From Streptomyces sp. WM6378 (GTDB lineage Bacteria; Actinomycetota; Actinomycetes; Streptomycetales; Streptomycetaceae), in NCBI RefSeq assembly GCF_001279695.1, contig NZ_LGDD01000081.1, forward strand, positions 53,880-117,879: a stretch of 64,000 nt of DNA, written 5' to 3'. This document shows positions 13,811 through 48,163 of the stretch, piece by piece. Position 1 is the first letter of the stretch; each line of letters opens with the position of its first letter. Made by a program: the position numbers and the translations under genes. Below the pieces are notes generated by a model, which made no database searches, had not been told where the DNA came from, and saw only the letters and a program-made list of their open reading frames with translations.

Positions 13811-14098
13811 AGCGGTCGTCTCCCCGGCATCGCTGGCCCCCCGATGCGTGCCCGGGAGACGACCCGACGAGCCCATCGCCTCGTGGCCGTCAACGGGCGG
13901 CGCATGTGCGCGAGAGATGGGCGGCGGCTTCGCTCGCCCACTGCCCCGAACCGGCAGCAGCGGAGCCGCCCGGCCTTCGCCGACCCCGGAAGTCGGCGAA
14001 GGCCCGCCGCTCTTCCATTGCGGTGCGCGGCACGACTTCACTGCCCTGATTGCGACCTGCGCCGTTCTGCGCACCCGCCCCAACTCCTGGAGCTCGAC

Positions 14099-38296: not shown

Positions 38297-38656
38297 TCAG
38301 TGATGGAGAGTGTGAATCTCCTGGATCACCGAGGGGCCGTCGCTGCCGCGGACGATGCGGTGGACCAGAAGGTCACCGCGGTGGAGGGCGAGGTGGCGGG
38401 CCTTGTCCTCGATGGCGGCGAGTTTGCTGCCGGAGGGGCGGAGGGCTCCGCAAGTGCACTGGAAGCCGAACCCATTGCGGCCGCCGAGGGCGGCACAGTC
38501 CGGGTTGAGCGGCCGTCCCTGGTGGTGGCGGTGCTCCGCCTCTCCACTGAGGGGGCATGGCGAGTGGTCCGTAGTGTGCAGGCCCACGACGTCGGCTGTG
38601 AAGACGTGGTCGTTGGTGCTGTGCGCGTCCTTGGTGTTCGCGGCGTGCGTGGCCAC
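38297..38656 (-). CDS. Small hypothetical protein, His/Cys-containing
   Basis: GTG follows AAGGGG. The 119-residue protein has HRHHQGRPLNPDC and FQCTCGALRPSG, perhaps a metal site. It is divergent from the gene at 38840; operator pair 1 lies between, 65 bases from this start. Confidence 0.55.
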   Translation of the reverse strand: MATHAANTKDAHSTNDHVFTADVVGLHTTDHSPCPLSGEAEHRHHQGRPLNPDCAALGGRNGFGFQCTCGALRPSGSKLAAIEDKARHLALHRGDLLVHRIVRGSDGPSVIQEIHTLHH

Positions 38657-38720: not shown

Positions 38721-38773
38721 TGACGCTATTAACTTTACCAACAATGGATTTATGTGTCAATCTAATAGGGTCA
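38721..38773. promoter_or_regulatory. Shared AT-rich inverted-repeat operator, site 1
   Basis: TGACGCTATTAACTTTACC (38721-38739) and, reversed, TGACCCTATTAGATTGACA (38755-38773) are separated by 15 bases. It is midway between divergent genes at 38656 and 38840. Confidence 0.75.
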
Positions 38774-38839
38774 TTGCGATGAGTGGGCCGCACCGCAACA
38801 GCCCACGCATCACCGGAAGTTCGACAGCCTGGAGGCCCA

Positions 38840-39235
38840 TTGACCCGCCCGCTCGGCCATCATCAGCTCACCGCTCTCAGCGCACTCGCCCGCCTCAACA
38901 GCGGCACCTGGAGCCCCGACTGCGCCTGGCGGCTGCACTCCGTCGCGTACACGGCCCGCGTGCTGAACACGCTCGTGGAGCGGGAGTATGCGACCCGGTC
39001 GAGCGCGACCGGCCGCTACGCGATCACCGAGCAGGGCCTGAACAAGCTGGGCTGGTTCACCTGCGGGAACTGCACCCGGCTGACCCGCTCCCCGGTCTTC
39101 GAGCAGCCCTGCACCTCCGAGCGGCAGGTGCGGTGCTCCTGGTGCGTCGCCCCCGAGCAGGCTCCGCCCGCCAGGGAATCCGGCCTCGGCGGAACTCGGG
39201 TTCCCGTCACGCCGGTCCGCAAGGTGACGGCCTGA
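38840..39235 (+). CDS. Winged-helix-like protein with zinc ribbon
   Basis: TTG at 38840 follows GGAGG (four bases). The 131-residue protein has a winged-helix-like N-terminus (LTALSALARLNSGTW, YTARVLNTLVEREYATRSSA, YAITEQGLNKL) and a zinc-ribbon C-terminus (FTCGNCTRL, VRCSWC). It could be a DNA-binding regulator of the shared operators, or of its own promoter. Confidence 0.6.
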   Translation: MTRPLGHHQLTALSALARLNSGTWSPDCAWRLHSVAYTARVLNTLVEREYATRSSATGRYAITEQGLNKLGWFTCGNCTRLTRSPVFEQPCTSERQVRCSWCVAPEQAPPARESGLGGTRVPVTPVRKVTA

Positions 39236-39291
39236 TGGCCGCCGCCCCGGCGAGTTCCGCCGTTGCGCACCGCACGAGGAGGTGCTCACCT

Positions 39292-39822
39292 ATGGACTGG
39301 ATCCGGATCCCGGCCGCGCCGGAGGACTCCTCGCGTACGGAGCGGCGGGTGATGTGGACGGTGTCGGTCTATCGCCGGTCGGGCGACACCGAGGTCCACG
39401 AGTACACCAGCCACCGCCTCGACTCCCCCGGTCTGGCTCGGGAGCATGCGCGGCTCGCGCGGGAGCGTCCCTGGGTGTCGCGGGTCGCGCTGACCGAGCA
39501 TGTCCGTGAGGTGTCCCGGCGCGCGATCGGCGAGGAGGGCCTGCCGGTCCGCAGTCTGCCGCCCCGGCGGGTGCCGGACCGGCCGGGCGGGCGCCTGGTC
39601 GCGCATTTCTATGAGATCGAGGGCCTGGAGGGCGCCGGGGAGCTGAGCGCCGACGACGTCCGCTGCCACCTGTACTGGCTGCGCGAGGCGGCAGCCTCAA
39701 CGCGGCCACCCGAAGGCGCCGGGGCCAAGAACGCGAGCGCCACTCTGTGGGAGGTCGTGGTGGTCGACATCGACCGGCTGACGACGGAAGACGCGCTGCC
39801 CCACACCCTGAGTGACCCTTAA
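39292..39822 (+). CDS. Hypothetical protein, 176 residues
   Basis: ATG follows AGGAGG. A soluble, Arg-rich protein (MDWIRIPAAPEDSSRTERRV, GRLVAHFYEIEGLEG, LWEVVVVDIDRLTTED). No family recognised. Its 3' end overlaps operator pair 2. Confidence 0.6.
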   Translation: MDWIRIPAAPEDSSRTERRVMWTVSVYRRSGDTEVHEYTSHRLDSPGLAREHARLARERPWVSRVALTEHVREVSRRAIGEEGLPVRSLPPRRVPDRPGGRLVAHFYEIEGLEGAGELSADDVRCHLYWLREAAASTRPPEGAGAKNASATLWEVVVVDIDRLTTEDALPHTLSDP

Positions 39823-39865
39823 AATTTGACATATTGCCAATGTATTCCTTACTTTAAATGGGTCG
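39813..39865 (+). promoter_or_regulatory. Shared AT-rich inverted-repeat operator, site 2
   Basis: TGACCCTTAAAATTTGACA (39813-39831) and, reversed, CGACCCATTTAAAGTAAGG (39847-39865), 15 bases apart, upstream of the 40017/39858 gene. Confidence 0.7.
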
Positions 39866-40643
39866 CCGATGGCGTGATCCGCCCGCCGAGGGACGGCCGC
39901 ACAGCCGCCGAGCGACGCCAACTGCACTTTCTAGCCTGCTAGTTCCGGGGCCACTCGACCTTTCCGAGCTGGTTGCTAGTCCGGCCGCCCCGGCCCTGCT
40001 ATCTCTGGAGGAGACCCTGCCCCCGTCTGCCCACGCCCGGCCCGCCGCCCATCCGTACACGCCGATCGCCCGCGCCCAGCGATGGGACATCCGTCTCGCC
40101 CGTACGCTCTTGGCCGAGCGCACCGACCTGCCCGACCTGGACACCGGCGAGTCCTCATCGACCGGCTACGGCGTCAGCGCCGACTTCTGGCGCGTCCAGA
40201 TCATCTGGATACAGAACGGCAGCCTCACCCTGCCGAGGGCCGGCACGGCCGCGCGCCGCAGGTGGGACGCGGCCCTCGACGCCATCGAAGTCGCCCTTGG
40301 CTCCGGGGAGTTCACCGCTCTGGCTCGCAACCGATACTGCGTGTCTGCGGCTGCGGTGGTTCCTGACGAGCCGCAGTGCACCGCGCGGCTGAGCCGCGTC
40401 GGCCCGCTCGGAGCCTTCCGCAGCGAGGTGACCTTCGACGGGTACGCGGCCCAGACCGCGTCCGGCGCGCTGGTCCTCGCCTCGCACGGCGCCTCTCCGA
40501 CGTCGACGCTGATCGTCACCGACGCGGCGGGCGCCGAGGTGGGGCGCGGCTGCGACAGCCACCAGCACGCGATCGAGTCGCTGGCCCACCACTACGGCCT
40601 ACCCATGCCGCTCGCCCTGATCGACGAAGGGCGCCGCCAGTGA
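39858..40643 (+). CDS. Hypothetical protein; start probably further in
   Basis: The open frame begins with ATG at 39858, but that lies inside operator 2. GGAGGAGACC precedes a CTG at 40017, which is the more likely start (208 residues: PPSAHARPAAHPYTPIARAQ onward). The protein has WDAALDAIEVALGSGEFTAL and a beta-rich end (ALVLASHGASPTSTLIVTD). Function unknown. It overlaps the next start by GTGA. Confidence 0.55.
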   Translation: MGRRWRDPPAEGRPHSRRATPTALSSLLVPGPLDLSELVASPAAPALLSLEETLPPSAHARPAAHPYTPIARAQRWDIRLARTLLAERTDLPDLDTGESSSTGYGVSADFWRVQIIWIQNGSLTLPRAGTAARRRWDAALDAIEVALGSGEFTALARNRYCVSAAAVVPDEPQCTARLSRVGPLGAFRSEVTFDGYAAQTASGALVLASHGASPTSTLIVTDAAGAEVGRGCDSHQHAIESLAHHYGLPMPLALIDEGRRQ

Positions 40644-41359
40644 ACCACCCCTCCTCAACCTCCCGTTCGCGGCCCGCGGCGGCCCGAGCCAGCCAACTCA
40701 GCGCGTCCCAGCGCGCGGGTCTTCATGCCGCCGCCGTGCACGGCGAGGGACACATTCCAGCGTGCCTGCCCGCCAACGAGGCCCGTCAGCTCGCCGAGCT
40801 GGGCCTCGTCCAGGCGCTCAGCACGGGCCTGGACACCCGGTTCGGTCCGCTGACACGCGCGCCGTCCTACAGGATCACCCGAGCCGGCCGCAGCCGGGCC
40901 CAGCGCGCGCCTCGGCCCCAAGTCCTGCTCGTGCCCTGCTCGATGGGCAAGGCCGAGGTGCCTGCCGCCCCGGCAGGCGAGATGTACGTGGGTCCCTACC
41001 ACGTCGCGGCCCGCAAGGCCGCGGCTGCGGCGGCCGAGGCTGCGGACGGCTCAGCGCAGGTCCTGACGTTGTCCGCGAAGTTCGGGCTGCTGCGCGACGA
41101 AGACCCGATCCTGCACTACGACCTGCGCGCGGGCCAGAACGGCACGGTGTCCCCTCACGTGCTGGCCCGCCAGGCCCACTTCCTCGGTGTGAGCGCCGCG
41201 CGGGTGACGGTCTTCGCCGGCAGGTCTTACGCGGACCTCGCCGCCGCGATCTGGCCCACGCTGGAACACCCGCTCCGTGGCCTGGGGATCGGCCAGCACC
41301 TGGCTTTCTTCGCCGACCTGTACCGGCCCTCCCGCCGCACCGTCCTCCAACGCCCGTAG
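40640..41359 (+). CDS. DUF6884-like protein
   Basis: The GTG-started 239-residue protein has an N-terminal winged-helix-like part and a C-terminal domain with VLLVPCSMGKAE, YVGPYHVAARKAA and VLTLSAKFGLL, resembling DUF6884/YaaA-type domains whose role is unclear. Coupled to the previous gene. Confidence 0.65.
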   Translation: MNHPSSTSRSRPAAARASQLSASQRAGLHAAAVHGEGHIPACLPANEARQLAELGLVQALSTGLDTRFGPLTRAPSYRITRAGRSRAQRAPRPQVLLVPCSMGKAEVPAAPAGEMYVGPYHVAARKAAAAAAEAADGSAQVLTLSAKFGLLRDEDPILHYDLRAGQNGTVSPHVLARQAHFLGVSAARVTVFAGRSYADLAAAIWPTLEHPLRGLGIGQHLAFFADLYRPSRRTVLQRP

Positions 41360-41453
41360 GTGCCGCCGGGCGGCCGGGCTCTGTCCACAGGCCGCTCCGC
41401 GCAACGTGTCCTGATCAACTCCACGGCCCCACGGCCCGACGACAGGAATGCTC

Positions 41454-42185
41454 ATGTTCAAGAAGCTCTTCCCCGGTTCCTCCTCCACCGCCGCCTCCCC
41501 GGCCGCTGCGCCGGCCCGTTCGACGATGGAGGGGCTGACCAACAAGGCCGCGCACAGCTTGCGGAAGTTCGGGCTGGCCGGGCAGCGGGCGGCGGTCTAT
41601 CTCGTCCTGGACCGCTCGGGGTCCATGCGCCCGTACTACAGCGACGGCACCGTCCAGTACCTCGCCGAGCGGATTCTGGGCCTGGCGCGGAACCTGGATT
41701 CCGACGGCTCAGTGCCGGTGACGTTCTTCTCCACCGACGTTGACTGCGAGTTCACGGTCAGCGTGGACGACTACGCCGGCCGGATCGAGGACGCCCACCA
41801 GCGCCTCGGGCACATGGGCCGCACCAATTACGCGACGGCCATCCGGGCCGTCCTGGAGCAGCACCGCCAGTCCGGGGAGACCCTGCCCGCGCTGATCGTC
41901 TTCCAGACCGACGGCAATCCGGACGACCGGGCCGATGTGATCGCCCTCCTGCGCGAGATCGTCGGAGAGGGCGAGGGTGAGGGGATCGAGGCGTTCATCG
42001 CCTTCGTCGCCTTCGGCAAGAAGGTCGACTTCCTGCATACCCTCGACGACCTCGGGCTCAAGGACGACCGCGTCTCGCGGTTCCAGGCCGACGAGCCCGA
42101 GCACATCACCGACGAGGAGCTCTACGACGGCATCACCCACGAGTTCGTCCCCTGGCTCATCGCCCGCCAGCCGGTCCGGCACTGA
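41454..42185 (+). CDS. vWA domain protein (TerF-like)
   Basis: The 243-residue protein has a MIDAS motif DRSGSM at residues 53-58, then TFFSTDVDCEFTVSVDDY, MGRTNYATAIRAVL and LIVFQTDGNPDDRADV, as in TerF/TerY-type von Willebrand A proteins linked to stress and phage or plasmid functions. ATG 41454 is preferred (AGGA six bases upstream) over 41448. Confidence 0.8.
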   Translation: MFKKLFPGSSSTAASPAAAPARSTMEGLTNKAAHSLRKFGLAGQRAAVYLVLDRSGSMRPYYSDGTVQYLAERILGLARNLDSDGSVPVTFFSTDVDCEFTVSVDDYAGRIEDAHQRLGHMGRTNYATAIRAVLEQHRQSGETLPALIVFQTDGNPDDRADVIALLREIVGEGEGEGIEAFIAFVAFGKKVDFLHTLDDLGLKDDRVSRFQADEPEHITDEELYDGITHEFVPWLIARQPVRH

Positions 42186-42293
42186 TCCTCGCCGGGAACG
42201 CCGGCCGCCGTCGCGCGGCCGGCCCGCCGGACCCTCCTTCTCAGCGAAGCGCGCGGCCGTCGTCCGCGCCCGATCGATGAACTGGACACACCG

Positions 42294-42677
42294 ATGAGCA
42301 ACTCGACACTCCACGCGTCCTACAGCAGCGCCTCCCGGGCTGCCGGCGCACTAGCCGCAGCCCTGCAGGTGCTGGTCGCCCGGACCGGTGCGGACCCGGA
42401 CCTGGCGCGGGCGCTGGCTCGGATCGACACCACAGAGATGAAGGGCGTCCTGGACGCCGCCGCTCTGCAGGCCGCGCTCGCCGAGGCGCAGGCGGAACGC
42501 GACATCACCGCGGCGCTCGCCGAGCGATGCCTGCGGCGCGAGGCCACCGGGGCCGCGCTGGGCACCCCGTGCGCGTGCACGCACTCGGCCGCCACCCACG
42601 CCCCCCGCCTGACCAAGGGCGGGCGACTGCCCTGCCGGCACACCGGCTGCGGCTGCGACGACCTCACCTTCCGCTGA
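42294..42677 (+). CDS. Hypothetical protein with Cys/His-rich tail
   Basis: The 127-residue protein is helical at first (QAALAEAQAERDITAALAER), ending CACTHSAATHAP...RLPCRHTGCGCDD, a probable zinc-binding tail (spaced Cys and His). No family recognised. Confidence 0.6.
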   Translation: MSNSTLHASYSSASRAAGALAAALQVLVARTGADPDLARALARIDTTEMKGVLDAAALQAALAEAQAERDITAALAERCLRREATGAALGTPCACTHSAATHAPRLTKGGRLPCRHTGCGCDDLTFR

Positions 42678-42809
42678 CCTCGCGACCGGACCTAAGACCT
42701 CGCTCCCCGCCCCCCGAACGCTTCAGCTCATCCGCTCTTTGGCCCTGGGATTCCGGTCCCGGGGCTTTCGGCGCTCCCGCAGCGTTGCATCGCCGCACCG
42801 TCCAGCAGC

Positions 42810-42861
42810 CGACCCTGAAAACTTGCCGTACCATCGGCCGTAAATTTACTTTTTAGCGACA
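42810..42861 (+). promoter_or_regulatory. Shared AT-rich inverted-repeat operator, site 3
   Basis: CGACCCTGAAAACTTGCCG (42810-42828) and, reversed, TGTCGCTAAAAAGTAAATT (42843-42861). The right half ends 10 bases before the ATG of the 42872 gene and abuts its ribosome site, so binding should repress it. Confidence 0.65.
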
Positions 42862-42871
42862 AGGAGCCGAG

Positions 42872-43573
42872 ATGGCCCGCAAAGACGACCTGCTCAACCT
42901 GAGCGAGATTGCGCGGCTGGCCGGCGTGGGCCGGACAGCCGCACAGAAGTGGCACACGTCCCGCAAGACTGGCGGGGAGCCGCCACTGCGCATGGTCGCC
43001 CAGGCCATGGAGGTCAGTGTGCCGGAGGCGGACGACGCTGCGCCGCGCTACCCCCGCAAGGTGGTCGTCGCCTTCCTCAAGGCCGTCGGCTACATGAACG
43101 CGGACGAGAGCCTCATGTACCGGCGACCGGGGAAGGGCAAGTGGACGCCGGCCAGCCCGACCATCGACCCCCGCCGCGTGAAGCAGCCGGCCCCGGACTC
43201 CGACGAGAAGCCACTCAAGGTGGATCCGCAGACCGGAGGCCGCTACCGGTACTACGTGCCGCATGCCTGGCAGGTGGCGGGCTTCGGCTCCGAGAACAGC
43301 TTCACCAGCTCCAAGACCCACGGCCGCGCACCCGAACCCGACGGGATCGACGAGCTCGAGCGCCCCTACTGGTTCGCGGAGACCCTGGAAGCGTGGAAGG
43401 ACGGAGCTGCGGACCGGAAAGCTGAGCGATACGCCAGCCGCACCATCCCGCCGGATGGCTACACACCCGCCGGCGAGCCCTATCGAGTCCTGCCCGGGAC
43501 CAACTACTACGCCCGGCAGGCTGCCAAGGAAGCCGGACAAGGCAGCGAGGAACAGCCCTCCAGAGAGGAGTAA
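42872..43573 (+). CDS. HTH-domain protein, candidate regulator
   Basis: The 233-residue protein starts with a MerR/AlpA-like HTH (LLNLSEIARLAGVGRTAAQK, then WHTSRKTGGEPP), followed by a polar C-terminus with no domain I know. AAGGAG precedes the ATG. Because operator 3 touches its ribosome site, it may be autoregulated and is one candidate binder of the shared motif. Confidence 0.65.
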   Translation: MARKDDLLNLSEIARLAGVGRTAAQKWHTSRKTGGEPPLRMVAQAMEVSVPEADDAAPRYPRKVVVAFLKAVGYMNADESLMYRRPGKGKWTPASPTIDPRRVKQPAPDSDEKPLKVDPQTGGRYRYYVPHAWQVAGFGSENSFTSSKTHGRAPEPDGIDELERPYWFAETLEAWKDGAADRKAERYASRTIPPDGYTPAGEPYRVLPGTNYYARQAAKEAGQGSEEQPSREE

Positions 43574-43582
43574 AAGAGCCCC

Positions 43583-43628
43583 TGACCTGCCATTTTCTAA
43601 TGTACCTGTGGTAAAATTAATAGCGTCA
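43583..43628 (+). promoter_or_regulatory. Shared AT-rich inverted-repeat operator, site 4
   Basis: Reversed right half TGACGCTATTAATTTTACC (43610-43628) differs from site 1 by one base. The left half (from 43583, TGACCTGCCATTTTCTAATG) is weaker and closer. It lies 97 bases before the 43725 gene. Confidence 0.65.
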
Positions 43629-43724
43629 GAGGGAGTCGGCTCCGGCCCACGGTGCGCCTTCGCGCCCCGTCCTGGACCCCGACGAGCCGGCCCCTGAATC
43701 CACCGAGGTGCTCCCGGAGGGCTC

Positions 43725-44699
43725 TTGACGGACACCACGACGCACCCACAGGAAACCCCCAGTCCCACCGCACGCCCGCCCCACCCGCAGTTCCCGTTCG
43801 GCCCCGCAGTCAAGACCCGGCTCCCGGGACGCATCGCGCTGATGGGGCCCAGCGGATCGGGCAAGACGTACACCGCGCTGGAGATGGCCTCCGCACTCGG
43901 CTCCACCACCGCGGTCATCGAGGCGGTCCACGGGCACGCCTCCAAGTACGCCGACCGGTTCAATTTCGACGTCTGCCCGCCCCTGACGTACTGCTCGCCG
44001 GAGGCGCTCATCGCGGCCCTGGCCGAATGCGCGGCCCAGGGCTACGCAACGGTGATCGTCGACCCGTACACGCTGTTCTGGTCCGGCCACGGCGGCGTCC
44101 TCGAACAGGTCGATGACGCCGCCAAGCGCGGCTCCAGCGGTAACAAGTCCGGCTGGAACGAGGTCCGCCCGCGTCAACGCCGCATGTGGGACGCCCTGTT
44201 CGCCTACCCCGGCCACGTCATCGCGACGCTGCGCTCGAAGACCGAGTACCACCTGGAGGCCGACGAGCAGGGTCACCACACGATGCGCCGGTTCGGCGGC
44301 AAGCCCGAGCAACGCGACGGCGCCGAGTACGAGTTCAACTTCGTCGGCGCGATGGACGACAACACGCTCGTCGTACTCAAGGCGCTCTCCGCGGACCTGT
44401 CCGGCGCGGTCGTCTCCAAGCCCGGGGCCGAGTTCGCCGCCCGCGTACGGGACTGGCTGGAGGACGGCGAGCCGCCCACCCCGCCGGTGCCGGTCACGGA
44501 ACTGATCGCGCAGGCATGCCATCCCGAGGTGACCCATGCCGCACTCGGCCAGCTGCGGGACACCGTTCGCGCCCGGTTCCTGGAAGACGTCCTGATCACC
44601 GACGACGACGGCGTGACCCTCGTCCGCCTGGACGACTACATCACCCGGCGCGGCCGTTCTCTGCAGGCCACCGCTGTGCAGGACGCCCACGTCTCATGA
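43725..44699 (+). CDS. Phage-type AAA/RecA-like ATPase
   Basis: TTG at 43725 follows GGAGG. The 324-residue protein has Walker A GPSGSGKT (41-48), a Walker B-like YATVIVDPYTLFW, and NEVRPRQRRMWDAL. It resembles phage nucleotide-binding (AAA_24/Sak4-like) ATPases that help recombination. No recombinase partner is adjacent. Confidence 0.75.
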   Translation: MTDTTTHPQETPSPTARPPHPQFPFGPAVKTRLPGRIALMGPSGSGKTYTALEMASALGSTTAVIEAVHGHASKYADRFNFDVCPPLTYCSPEALIAALAECAAQGYATVIVDPYTLFWSGHGGVLEQVDDAAKRGSSGNKSGWNEVRPRQRRMWDALFAYPGHVIATLRSKTEYHLEADEQGHHTMRRFGGKPEQRDGAEYEFNFVGAMDDNTLVVLKALSADLSGAVVSKPGAEFAARVRDWLEDGEPPTPPVPVTELIAQACHPEVTHAALGQLRDTVRARFLEDVLITDDDGVTLVRLDDYITRRGRSLQATAVQDAHVS

Positions 44700-44841
44700 C
44701 GCCGGCGTGGCGGCCGCACCTGCGGCCGCCACGGCGTCGGCGCCAACCATCGCTGCTCTCCATCCACTTCACCGCTGGAGGTCCCGTGCGCACCACCTGG
44801 CTAGGCCGCATACCGACGCGACCCCGACCTCTGGAGCACCC

Positions 44842-45381
44842 TTGCCCCTTTCCACGCGCACCCCACTCGTCTCCCGCGCCGCCGCCGCGCTCCACGATCA
44901 CACCGCGCGCGCTCTGATCTTCCTGGCCGACCACGCGGCCCGCCGCTCCCGCGTCCCCAACCCGGTGGCCGCGACCCGCCTCGTGCTCGTCCACATCGCC
45001 GACCAGAACAAGTCCGGCGCCGACGTGCACATGGAGATCACCTCGGGCCTGGAGAACCTCGGCTTCACCTGGCCCGCCGGATGGTGCACCGGCTGCAATG
45101 TCGCACTCACCGATGACCAGGTCGAGGACGGCGGCCTGTGCGCCGCGTGCGCCCCTTGGTTCTGCGCTTGCGCGTTCGAGAACCCCGGCACCGAGGAGCA
45201 GTGCGGCGGCTGCCACCTCACCCGCAGCGGACTGGGCGAGACCATGCCCCCGTGCACCTGCGGGTGCGACACCTCCTTCGGGGAGTTCGGCGACTACGAC
45301 ACCGAATCATCCGTCTCCCGCCAGCACTTCATCGACACCGGGCTCTTCCTGCGGCCCGGCGAGACCCTCGACGCCGGCTGA
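44842..45381 (+). CDS. Cys-rich zinc protein, TTG start
   Basis: The frame opens at 44707, but TTG at 44842 after GGAG is the likely start (179 residues). The protein has a helical part (LIFLADHAARRSRVPNPVAA) and a Cys-rich C-terminus (CTGCNVAL, CAACAPWFCAC, CTCGCD), probably several zinc knuckles. An overlapping 43-residue frame (GTG 44786) has a better-placed GGAGG. Confidence 0.55.
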   Translation: MPLSTRTPLVSRAAAALHDHTARALIFLADHAARRSRVPNPVAATRLVLVHIADQNKSGADVHMEITSGLENLGFTWPAGWCTGCNVALTDDQVEDGGLCAACAPWFCACAFENPGTEEQCGGCHLTRSGLGETMPPCTCGCDTSFGEFGDYDTESSVSRQHFIDTGLFLRPGETLDAG

Positions 45382-45477
45382 CCGGCCCTCCTCGCAAGGG
45401 CGCCCTCCCTTGCGGGCAACTCCCAGACCGCGACGCCCCCAGCGGCTCCATCCCCCTGGAGATCACCACACCATCAA

Positions 45478-45530
45478 TGACCCTTTTAGCTTGCCCAATA
45501 AGCAATCTCGAAGTAAAATTAGAAGGGTCA
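45478..45530 (+). promoter_or_regulatory. Shared AT-rich inverted-repeat operator, site 5
   Basis: TGACCCTTTTAGCTTGCCC (45478-45496) and, reversed, TGACCCTTCTAATTTTACT (45512-45530), exactly 15 bases apart, upstream of the 45594 gene. Confidence 0.75.
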
Positions 45531-45593: not shown

Positions 45594-46037
45594 GTGATCG
45601 AGAAGGCACTCCGGGCAGCGAACGAGCAGCAGGAGGAGGTCGTCCGCGAGGTCTTCCGCGCGGCCGGCCTGCTCTGGCAGTGCAAGGGCCGCGACTGCCT
45701 CTTCGACAACACCGCCGCACAGGAACTGTGCGAGGGGTGCGGCCGCCAGCGCAACGGCCGGCGCATCGCCGACCGTGTTCCCCCCTCCTCGCACCCGGAC
45801 GACTTCGCCGCCCTGCGCCCCCTGCTGCAGGCGTACTTCACCGGCCAGGGCACGCCGATGCCGGACGCGGTGACGTTCGAGAAGGACTTCGACAACGACT
45901 GGGTCAGCTACGGCGCGACCCTCCACTACGGCCCGCGCACCGAACTCCACGACTTCGACGGCGCCGTGGAGGAAGCCCTCGACGCGCTCGACCGCGCCGA
46001 GCCCGGCGAAGACCTGCGCGTCGCCCTGTACCGCTGA
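45594..46037 (+). CDS. Small zinc-ribbon protein; possible ATT start
   Basis: The protein has QCKGRDCLFDNTAAQELCEGCG (Cys spaced for a zinc site, quoted in pieces: QCKGRDC, LCEGCG) and an acidic C-terminus. GTG 45594 is given as start, but GGAGG lies 18 bases before it and six bases before an in-frame ATT at 45582. No family recognised. Confidence 0.6.
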   Translation: MIEKALRAANEQQEEVVREVFRAAGLLWQCKGRDCLFDNTAAQELCEGCGRQRNGRRIADRVPPSSHPDDFAALRPLLQAYFTGQGTPMPDAVTFEKDFDNDWVSYGATLHYGPRTELHDFDGAVEEALDALDRAEPGEDLRVALYR

Positions 46038-46882: not shown

Positions 46883-48163
46883 ATGAACCTGACCGCCCGT
46901 CTGCATCTGCTCAACCTGATCCGCCTCTCGGCCAGCGCCGATGGCACCCGCCGCTCCGCCGAACGCGCCGCGCACCGCGCCCAGTTGCGCCGCAAGGAAG
47001 CGGCCGCCGCACGCCGCCGGCACCGCTATGTGGTGCGCACCGCCTCCAGCTGTGACCTCGACGACGCGGTGAAGGCCCTTGCCGACGCCGAGAACGCGTA
47101 TGCGGCACGCGCCGCGCAGGTCGAGACGGCCGGTGTCCGGTGGCGCCGCGCCTTTGCGGCGAGCGAGCGGGCCAATGCGCGGCTGGGTGAGGAACTCGCC
47201 CGCACCCGGATGCTGACCAGCGCGGGAGGCGCCGGCCGCAAGGGCGCCCGGCTCGCGGCCGAGATCTCCCTGCTGGCGGAACTCGCGGCCATGCCCGAGG
47301 AGTTGATCCGTGCAGCCTCGGCGCTTCTGGTGCAGAGTTCCGCTGGCAAGGACAGCGTCGTGGCGCTGGACCGCGTAGTGCGGTGGGCGAAGGCCGCCGG
47401 CTGCCTCCACAAGCTCGTGGTCGTCCATGCCGATATCGGTCAGGACGAGGAATGGCCCGGGGTCCGTGATCTTGCCCGGCAGCAGGCCGAGCGGTACGGG
47501 CTGCGGTTCGTCGTGGTCAAGGCGCCCGTCGGCTTCCTCGGCATGGTCGAGAAGCGCGGCATGTGGCCGGACGCGCAGAACCGGCTGTGCACCTCCACCC
47601 TGAAGCGGGACGAGGCCGCCAAGTTCTTCACGCAGATCGTCGAGGAGCTCGGGCTCGAGGAGCAGGCGCTGCTCGTCAACTGCCTGGGCATCCGGGCCGA
47701 CGAGTCCCCCTCGCGGCGCCGCAAGTCCGAGCTGGCCATCGACCACCGGGCCAGCAACGGCCGCCGCCTCGTCCTGACATGGCATCCGGTGTTCCGCCTC
47801 TCCGAGCGGGAGATCTGGCAGGAGATCGTGGACAACGCGCTCGACTACCACCCGGTGTACGACACCCTCATCCCCCGCCTGAGCTGCATCTTCTGCATCC
47901 TCGCGCCGTTCGACGTCCTGGCGCGCGCCGTCCGGCTGTGCTGGGTGCTGGGCCTGGAGACCCCGAAGACGTACGTCGACCTCGAGGACCGGCTCGGACA
48001 CCGCTTCAAGAACAAGTTCAGCCTCGCCGACGTCGTCGCCGAGGCTTCCCGCCTGGAGGCCGCCGAGGGCCCGATCACCTGGCGCCGGGGCGACGCGATC
48101 CGCCACCACCTCGGCGAAGAAGCAGCGACCGCCTACCTGCAGCGCCTGGTCCTCGCAGCCTGA
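46883..48163 (+). CDS. PAPS reductase-like PP-loop protein
   Basis: The 426-residue protein has a coiled-coil N-terminus (about 30-140), PP-loop SSAGKDS at 152-158, HADIGQDEEWPGVRDLARQQ, NRLCTSTLKRD and a SCIFC motif near 345, the features of phage/mobile-element phosphoadenosine-phosphosulfate reductase family proteins (also DndC-like). Cys residues could hold an FeS cluster or zinc. Substrate unknown; other Dnd genes are absent. Confidence 0.75.
   Translation: MNLTARLHLLNLIRLSASADGTRRSAERAAHRAQLRRKEAAAARRRHRYVVRTASSCDLDDAVKALADAENAYAARAAQVETAGVRWRRAFAASERANARLGEELARTRMLTSAGGAGRKGARLAAEISLLAELAAMPEELIRAASALLVQSSAGKDSVVALDRVVRWAKAAGCLHKLVVVHADIGQDEEWPGVRDLARQQAERYGLRFVVVKAPVGFLGMVEKRGMWPDAQNRLCTSTLKRDEAAKFFTQIVEELGLEEQALLVNCLGIRADESPSRRRKSELAIDHRASNGRRLVLTWHPVFRLSEREIWQEIVDNALDYHPVYDTLIPRLSCIFCILAPFDVLARAVRLCWVLGLETPKTYVDLEDRLGHRFKNKFSLADVVAEASRLEAAEGPITWRRGDAIRHHLGEEAATAYLQRLVLAA

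Follow-up and report, generated by a model that had tools for sequence, protein, structure and literature searches.

Several genes in a stretch of Streptomyces sp. WM6378 DNA (genome G000) are preceded by AT-rich repeats, and the question raised by this locus is what these repeats do and which protein reads them. The window, as we call the whole stretch analyzed here, comprises 64,000 nucleotides (nt) of contig C81 (NZ_LGDD01000081.1, positions 53880-117879; 69% G+C), and a preliminary description of its interval 38721..45530 had proposed five operons under one inverted-repeat operator. Sequence comparison indicates that the repeats are promoter and operator in one and that they recur across a whole plasmid and its relatives. 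The candidate reader is encoded within the same interval and is named here protein A; we consider it somewhat better than even, with a probability of roughly 0.55, that this protein is a plasmid-wide repressor of establishment-type genes acting through these promoter-operators.

The half-site reads TGAC-NNN-TWWAA-N-TTGAC, its sub-boxes TGAC and TTGAC being spaced 13 bp, with a -35 hexamer at its 3' end, followed by 17 bp and a -10 element. Two properties had escaped the preliminary description; namely, that the repeats hold the core promoter itself (its -35 within one arm and its -10 within the opposite one) and that their spelling is plasmid-specific. Among 207 half-sites on five plasmids, 86 are arranged in facing pairs, all 43 of which are offset by 33-35 bp, and 121 are single. 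The single ones share the orientation of the next downstream gene in 114 of 121 cases, with distances to the start clustering at ~75-102 nt, and the logo of the 92 single sites having a gene within 130 nt, TGACSCNTWWAA-N-TTGAC, 17 bp, GGGTAMATTAGTGA (TAMATT), corresponds to a -35 plus a -10. In facing pairs the -10 is covered by the second half-site, and the promoter of an AAA ATPase gene keeps that second half alone; the boxes thus lie over the -35, over the -35 and -10, or over the -10/+1. Only two of the 207 half-sites fall inside genes predicted with a simple codon-usage finder, although genes occupy 67-76% of the sequence, which bears out the earlier placement of the sites at gene starts and leaves no sign of a motif commonly found away from promoters.

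The five places previously noted in the window comprise four facing pairs, with half-sites of 19 nt, and one half-site that has no partner (Table 1). Inverted pairs had been described at all five; this holds at 38721, 39813, 42810 and 45478 but not at 43583, where the right half (43610-43628) stands alone. The 15-nt spacer given as usual is found in three of the four pairs, the fourth, at 42810, having 14 nt. Other details were confirmed as well: the genes at site 38721 are divergent, and half-sites 38721-38739 and 43610-43628, 4.9 kb apart, differ by one base. The motif does stand out, the originally proposed consensus (≤3 mismatches) matching 4 half-sites in 64 kb and none in 100 dinucleotide shuffles. 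Site 39813 has an orthologous site at position 203028 of the related plasmid W01 (NZ_CP108096.1, linear, 312 kb), and, within a wider set of relatives (W01-W07), W01-W04 and W07 retain the 42810 pair ahead of their protein A genes. The one-sided layout of the 43610 site repeats at the orthologous promoter in W01-W04, W07, pFRL6, G256 and pFRL3. A conserved CTGACCTGC/CTGAGCTGC stretch, outside the half-site and upstream of the AAA -10, is seen at 43582-43592 and at the orthologous AAA promoters of protein A plasmids. Rfam, at gathering score, gave no match in the window.

Table 1. Sites and associated genes in the window (positions counted from its first nucleotide).
Feature	Coordinates	Strand	Remarks
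Facing pair 19-15-19 (site 38721)	38721..38773		Between divergent genes; promoter candidates read by eye from the logo: minus strand TTGACA-N17-TAAAGT, plus strand weaker TTTACC-N17-TCAATC
Facing pair (site 39813)	39813..39865	+	Left half strong, right half degenerate; candidate TTGACA-N17-TTACTT
Pair upstream of the protein A gene	42810..42861	+	Spacer 14, right half weak; candidate TTGCCG-N17-TTACTT; start codon 10 nt after
Single half-site	43610..43628	-	Over -10/+1 of the AAA ATPase promoter, TAAAAT inside; no true left half
Facing pair (site 45478)	45478..45530	+	TTGCCC (45491-45496)-N17-TAAAAT (45514-45519)
119-aa protein, divergent target of site 38721	38297..38656	-	
131-aa protein, target of site 38721	38840..39235	+	Pfam best E 0.043, no clear match
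Target gene of site 39813	40110..40643	+	Start codon uncertain; ATG at 39858 likewise open
Protein A, 233 aa, candidate operator-binding protein	42872..43573	+	Two predicted winged-helix domains, residues ~6-90 and ~105-189
AAA_24 P-loop ATPase, phage-type family	43725..44699	+	PF13479 E 3.5e-17; phrog_1366 (no assigned function) E 1.3e-65
Target of site 45478, 147-aa protein having Cys pairs	45594..46037	+	No Pfam match

The dyad shape, together with the leading-region-like content of the genes concerned, would also fit single-strand (Frpo-like) promoters that form hairpins on entering DNA. This is very improbable, considering that 121 of the 207 half-sites have no facing partner and that single-stranded DNA folding of the five window sites brought only two of them to z ~ -2 (lowest -2.1; the others -1.4, -0.3 and -0.2).

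The sites are not restricted to a set of five operons. Half-sites counted with an iterated weight matrix at 14 bits, with the reversed sequence as control, numbered 41 on contigs C81, C211 and C222, just seven of them in the window, so that the earlier five-operon set has to be replaced by a plasmid-wide one. The motif is dense on C211 and C222 too; the three contigs total 300,653 bases, and because these motif-bearing contigs share orthologues with W01 they are taken as presumably one plasmid of about 300 kb. When the whole 9.5-Mb genome was scanned, all 21 matches with 0-1 mismatch lay on these contigs, two of 11 matches at 2 mismatches lay elsewhere, and with 3 mismatches allowed the background dominated (65 matches in total versus 50 for the reversed pattern). 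A combined -35/-10 pattern gave 16 matches in the genome, none of them outside these contigs, and its reversed control gave 0. The weight matrix, run over the whole plasmids, found 45, 35, 49 and 37 half-sites on W01, W02, W03 (NBC_01601) and W04, respectively, counting terminal repeats double (one site on W01, six on W03), with reversed-sequence controls of 2 on W03 and 0 on W01, W02, W04 and the WM6378 plasmid. A looser pattern matched W05, W06 and W07 at 9, 5 and 27 places (reversed controls 3, 0 and 0). The motif is therefore kept on related plasmids, and the lack of conservation that the preliminary description had named as a possible objection did not appear. Across 392 Streptomyces genomes, the promoter pattern (≤1 mismatch) matched ten: G000 with 10 matches, G284 with 17, G028 with 6 and seven others with one each; G284 is the strain of W04, with identical site sequences, and was not counted as a separate case.

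Such a distribution of extended promoters might be attributed to a plasmid sigma factor reading an extended -35, given the long conserved -35 side and the conservation of the -10 and the bases following it. The idea is barely credible, however, as nothing sets the -35 and -10 apart from ordinary elements, facing half-sites on top of the -10 are no feature of a sigma factor, and Sigma70 region 2 (PF04542) is encoded on one of the seven plasmids W01-W07, namely W05; its absence from W01-W04, W06 and W07 led us to reject a sigma factor regulon.

Related linear plasmids of Streptomyces share the design of the sites, and each type has its own core triplet. The triplet following TGAC is CCT in G000 and W01, mostly GCT in W02, GCG in W03 and W04, TCG in W07 and ACA in G028, where the spelling TGACACATAAAACTTGAC occurs at 13 places on three small contigs; in W05 and W06, whose matrices are noisy, it resembles AA plus a variable base. 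The first patterns were nearly silent on the protein A replicons pFRL6 (1 match), pFRL3 (0) and G256 (0). The AAA promoters of these three have a half-site at the equivalent place in another spelling (TGACGCTTAAGAGTATACC, TGACTCTTAAGACTATACC), and a pattern derived from these AAA-promoter boxes (≤3 mismatches) returned 45 sites on pFRL6 and 53 on pFRL3 (reversed 0 each), and 43 on G256 (reversed 5). De novo counting in CP117712 revealed GTCTATTAAGACT repeats forming 51-53 bp dyads, equal in geometry to those above, around TTGC-N-GTACAG cores. The corresponding regular expression gave 36 strand matches on pFRL6 (75 kb read), 18 on pFRL3 (20 kb read) and 12 on CP117712, each dyad being matched on both strands and, in CP117712, mostly twice per strand. 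On pKP058 (AP028456.1), the de novo repeat TGTAACTTATT is present at 15 places, 14 of them preceded by TTGC-N17, giving an array of the form TTGC-N17-TGTAACTTATTA. Overall, boxes occur on 12 of 13 protein A replicons (G000, W01-W07, pFRL6, pFRL3, G256 and CP117712), with a half-way form on the 13th, pKP058.

Protein A, which thus co-occurs with the boxes, was detected by tblastn on 11 of 72,556 plasmid records (W01-W07, pFRL6, pFRL3, pKP058 and CP117712), and all seven of W01-W07 carry arrays. Of the replicons with a detected box array, only the fragmented draft G028 yielded no protein A gene. Its predicted fold consists of two MerR/excisionase-like winged helices. Searches of Pfam, NCBIfam and PDB sequences yielded no confident family, Foldseek gave no PDB match at E 0.001, and tblastn gave none in 50,697 phage records at E 0.01; among PHROGs it weakly resembles phrog_597, 'DNA binding protein' (E 0.0014). 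The A2 profile search of the 392 genomes, with 7 candidates scored per genome, produced matches in 71 at E ≤ 0.001, of which three (G000, G284 and G256) were better than 1e-30; the remaining genomes were dropped, their matches being partial, often stop-broken and from 5e-6 up. A search of genome contigs for related loci returned one locus. The protein is doubled internally on W07 (L007, 7374-8633) and has an extra N-terminal helix-turn-helix (HTH)-like part on W03 (L003, 15354-16220) and W04 (L004, 14749-15600). Of the two proteins previously suggested for binding tests, the one at 42872 (protein A) is a plausible regulator, while nothing marks the one at 38840 as a binder.

A different plasmid-encoded reader, for example the multi-winged-helix protein B (W01, 283378-284364; WM6378 plasmid, C211, 67619-69040), is quite unlikely. 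Protein B is encoded on all of W01-W07, on the WM6378 plasmid and on a G028 contig next to sites, and some of its relatives have an Lsr2-type C-terminal domain; it is present, however, on the box-less plasmid NBC_01244 and was not found on box-bearing pFRL3, pFRL6 and CP117712, which rules it out as a necessary reader. Its own promoter has a box-like site on three plasmids (that of WM6378, W01 and W02) and none on W03 and W04. Several HTH stretches are predicted in protein B, and the Lsr2-type domain of two relatives is a precomputed PF23359 assignment. WhiB proteins, present on 9 of 9 plasmids including pFRL3 and pFRL6, do not follow the box spelling, though they stay eligible as binders. GntR was discarded as a shared reader, the copy of W01 and the WM6378 plasmid being just 24-25% identical to the W02 and W03 copies. 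The HTH protein at W01 54931, beside a 708-aa protein, resembles part of a terminal-protein pair.

In the repressor mechanism, protein A would bind the half-sites through its two winged-helix domains and block RNA polymerase, thereby repressing its own gene, the neighboring AAA ATPase gene and some 30 more plasmid promoters, and each plasmid type would have drifted to its own box spelling along with its own protein A. The targets would be kept low in the resident cell and be switched on once the plasmid reaches a cell that has no protein A. We infer this binding, repression and induction on entry partly by analogy with published systems: two domains on an asymmetric site follow the TipsytheTRex repressor (PMC9283540), release in the recipient follows RP4 (PMC7314908), and cluster A phages (PMC6550527) are the model for a spelling that goes with the repressor. 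Such a keep-low-then-fire use appears likely because the targets resemble genes for establishment (leading-region genes) and because, on the best annotated relative, W01, no site accompanies the genes for transfer and partition. On W01, genes for DUF932, RNA ligase, HU, WGR, XerD-like, protein A, AAA and many hypothetical proteins stand behind box sites; the segments 69-190 kb and 209-272 kb, with annotated dnaE, lexA, biosynthetic-type, FtsK-like, conjugal transfer and ParA genes, contain zero sites.

The same regulon could instead be served by protein A as an activator touching RNA polymerase at the -35, the facing half then serving an opposite promoter or feedback. MerR-like folds are often activators, and the single half-sites adjoin the -35 with a fixed orientation, resembling class II activator sites in this. 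We regard this as unlikely: the sole half-site of the AAA promoter lies on the -10/+1, the dyads of pFRL6, pFRL3 and CP117712 enclose the whole core promoter, and the conserved boxes flank the 17-bp spacer, whereas MerR activators bind within the -35/-10 spacer. Moreover, NBC_01244 has similar promoters with no box.

This circular MobF plasmid contains, before genes, nine copies of a 93-nt unit composed of TTGAC-N17-TAGAAT/TAGATT plus a leader, located in a leading-region-like block (ArdA, SSB, DUF932) near the MobF relaxase gene; it has neither box nor protein A. We read this as the promoter and leader having come first, with the box later added over the -35 on protein A plasmids, which favors repression by protein A. 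The leaders of the NBC_01244 units and of many box-controlled genes have a GCAAR hairpin in common, present in 34 of 99 leaders, whereas 50 mononucleotide shuffles averaged 2.9 and never exceeded 8, and RNA-level control through this hairpin is possible. In leaders on W01, W03, W04, the WM6378 plasmid and NBC_01244 (L198, 6500-18100), a GCAAG/GCAAA loop on a varying stem is followed by CACCACGAAC and the Shine-Dalgarno sequence. Plasmids devoid of protein A served as controls. The promoter pattern had 0 matches in the whole records of the S. canus plasmid NZ_CP108710.1, pSV2 and NBC_01244 (NZ_CP108490.1); 0 matches were also obtained in NBC_00842 and NBC_01238, where inspection by eye detected no box before the AAA genes. 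In de novo 9-mer counts, array words ranked top in 9 of 9 protein A replicons read, and the top words of the S. canus plasmid (300 of 388 kb read) and pSV2 were not array-like.

Several observations weigh against a protein A repressor. In G028 a box array exists, but the search for protein A gave only a partial match (best E 0.0017) and the protein was not found; this genome is a draft of about 1,300 contigs in which the AAA gene was likewise not found. Conversely, pKP058 encodes protein A, yet its array has the -10-side element only and no left box. The W06 protein A promoter has no clear box, the W05 and W06 arrays are noisy (43 and 31 matches versus 8 and 6 reversed, in about 60 kb each), and the de novo k-mer score of the WM6378 plasmid (18.3) is near that of the protein A-less S. 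canus plasmid (16.4). Spelling and protein A share a phylogeny, which makes their joint change a weak argument for contact; the binder could be a different plasmid protein, such as the WhiB proteins encoded on all nine plasmids tested, and at single sites an activator at the -35 is conceivable.

A PAPS-reductase-family protein is encoded at 46883-48163 (PF01507, E 1.9e-13) and kept on W01-W04, a TerF-like vWA protein at 41448-42185 (PF10138, E 4.9e-40) adjoins a DUF6884 protein, and the plasmid contig carries a tRNA-Arg (ccg) gene at 13945-14023.

If repression by protein A is correct, one small protein governs about thirty promoters on linear plasmids of very large size, and does so through a spelling readable from sequence, which would provide a handle on plasmid start-up in a new host and a means of sorting plasmids by box; moreover, nearly all targets being hypothetical, the regulon would give many such genes a shared role. 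Tentatively, the box spellings might also define plasmid immunity groups, analogous to superinfection immunity in cluster A phages: an incoming plasmid of the same group would be silenced, one of another group would fire its whole regulon, and co-residence or exclusion among linear plasmids of Streptomyces would follow protein A-box identity. It could then be tested whether the immunity-group logic of phages also runs plasmids.

A replicon-wide repressor regulon is of a known kind in plasmids and phages; the operator, the family of the candidate protein and the plasmid-by-plasmid spelling seen on linear plasmids of Streptomyces appear to be new, and no description of this regulon was found in the open literature, most subscription papers lying outside that search. 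BldC and other members of the MerR/excisionase winged-helix superfamily resemble protein A with Z < 8 throughout and no sequence match above the curated cut-off, and an operator within a lengthened -35/-10 spacer, a trait of the MerR family, is not seen, since the boxes flank a 17-bp spacer. SpdA2 of pIJ101 is likewise encoded on a Streptomyces plasmid and binds DNA at a short, conserved target, sps (PMC4170104); this, however, is a palindrome of 12 bp located within spdA or next to it, in 1-3 copies, and not a set of plasmid-wide promoters. Leading-region genes under Frpo/ssi promoters (PMC11541004) similarly have repeated promoters on establishment-type genes (DUF932, RNA ligase and methylase here; ArdA and SSB on NBC_01244). 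The promoters described here differ in being box-controlled and double-stranded rather than hairpins. The RP4 network involves KorA and KorB. RP4 combines a repressor network with zygotic induction (PMC7314908), and both systems would thus have plasmid-encoded repressors at many plasmid promoters with release in a new cell; the operators and, as far as tested, the protein are different, and the present sites are found at arm genes and the AAA locus but not at the W01 genes for transfer and partition. Close to the present case, too, are the cluster A mycobacteriophages (L5, TipsytheTRex) with their repressor and operators/stoperators (PMC9283540, PMC6550527). Differences are that protein A is without a match among the phage records (L5 gp71 was not itself aligned), the element is a plasmid, and its sites lie nearly all at promoters, many as facing pairs, whereas cluster A stoperators are mostly away from promoters. 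In both, one element-encoded protein with two DNA-binding domains per chain, a candidate in the present case, is matched with more than 20 asymmetric sites across the element, oriented with transcription and written in a genome-specific spelling that tracks the repressor.

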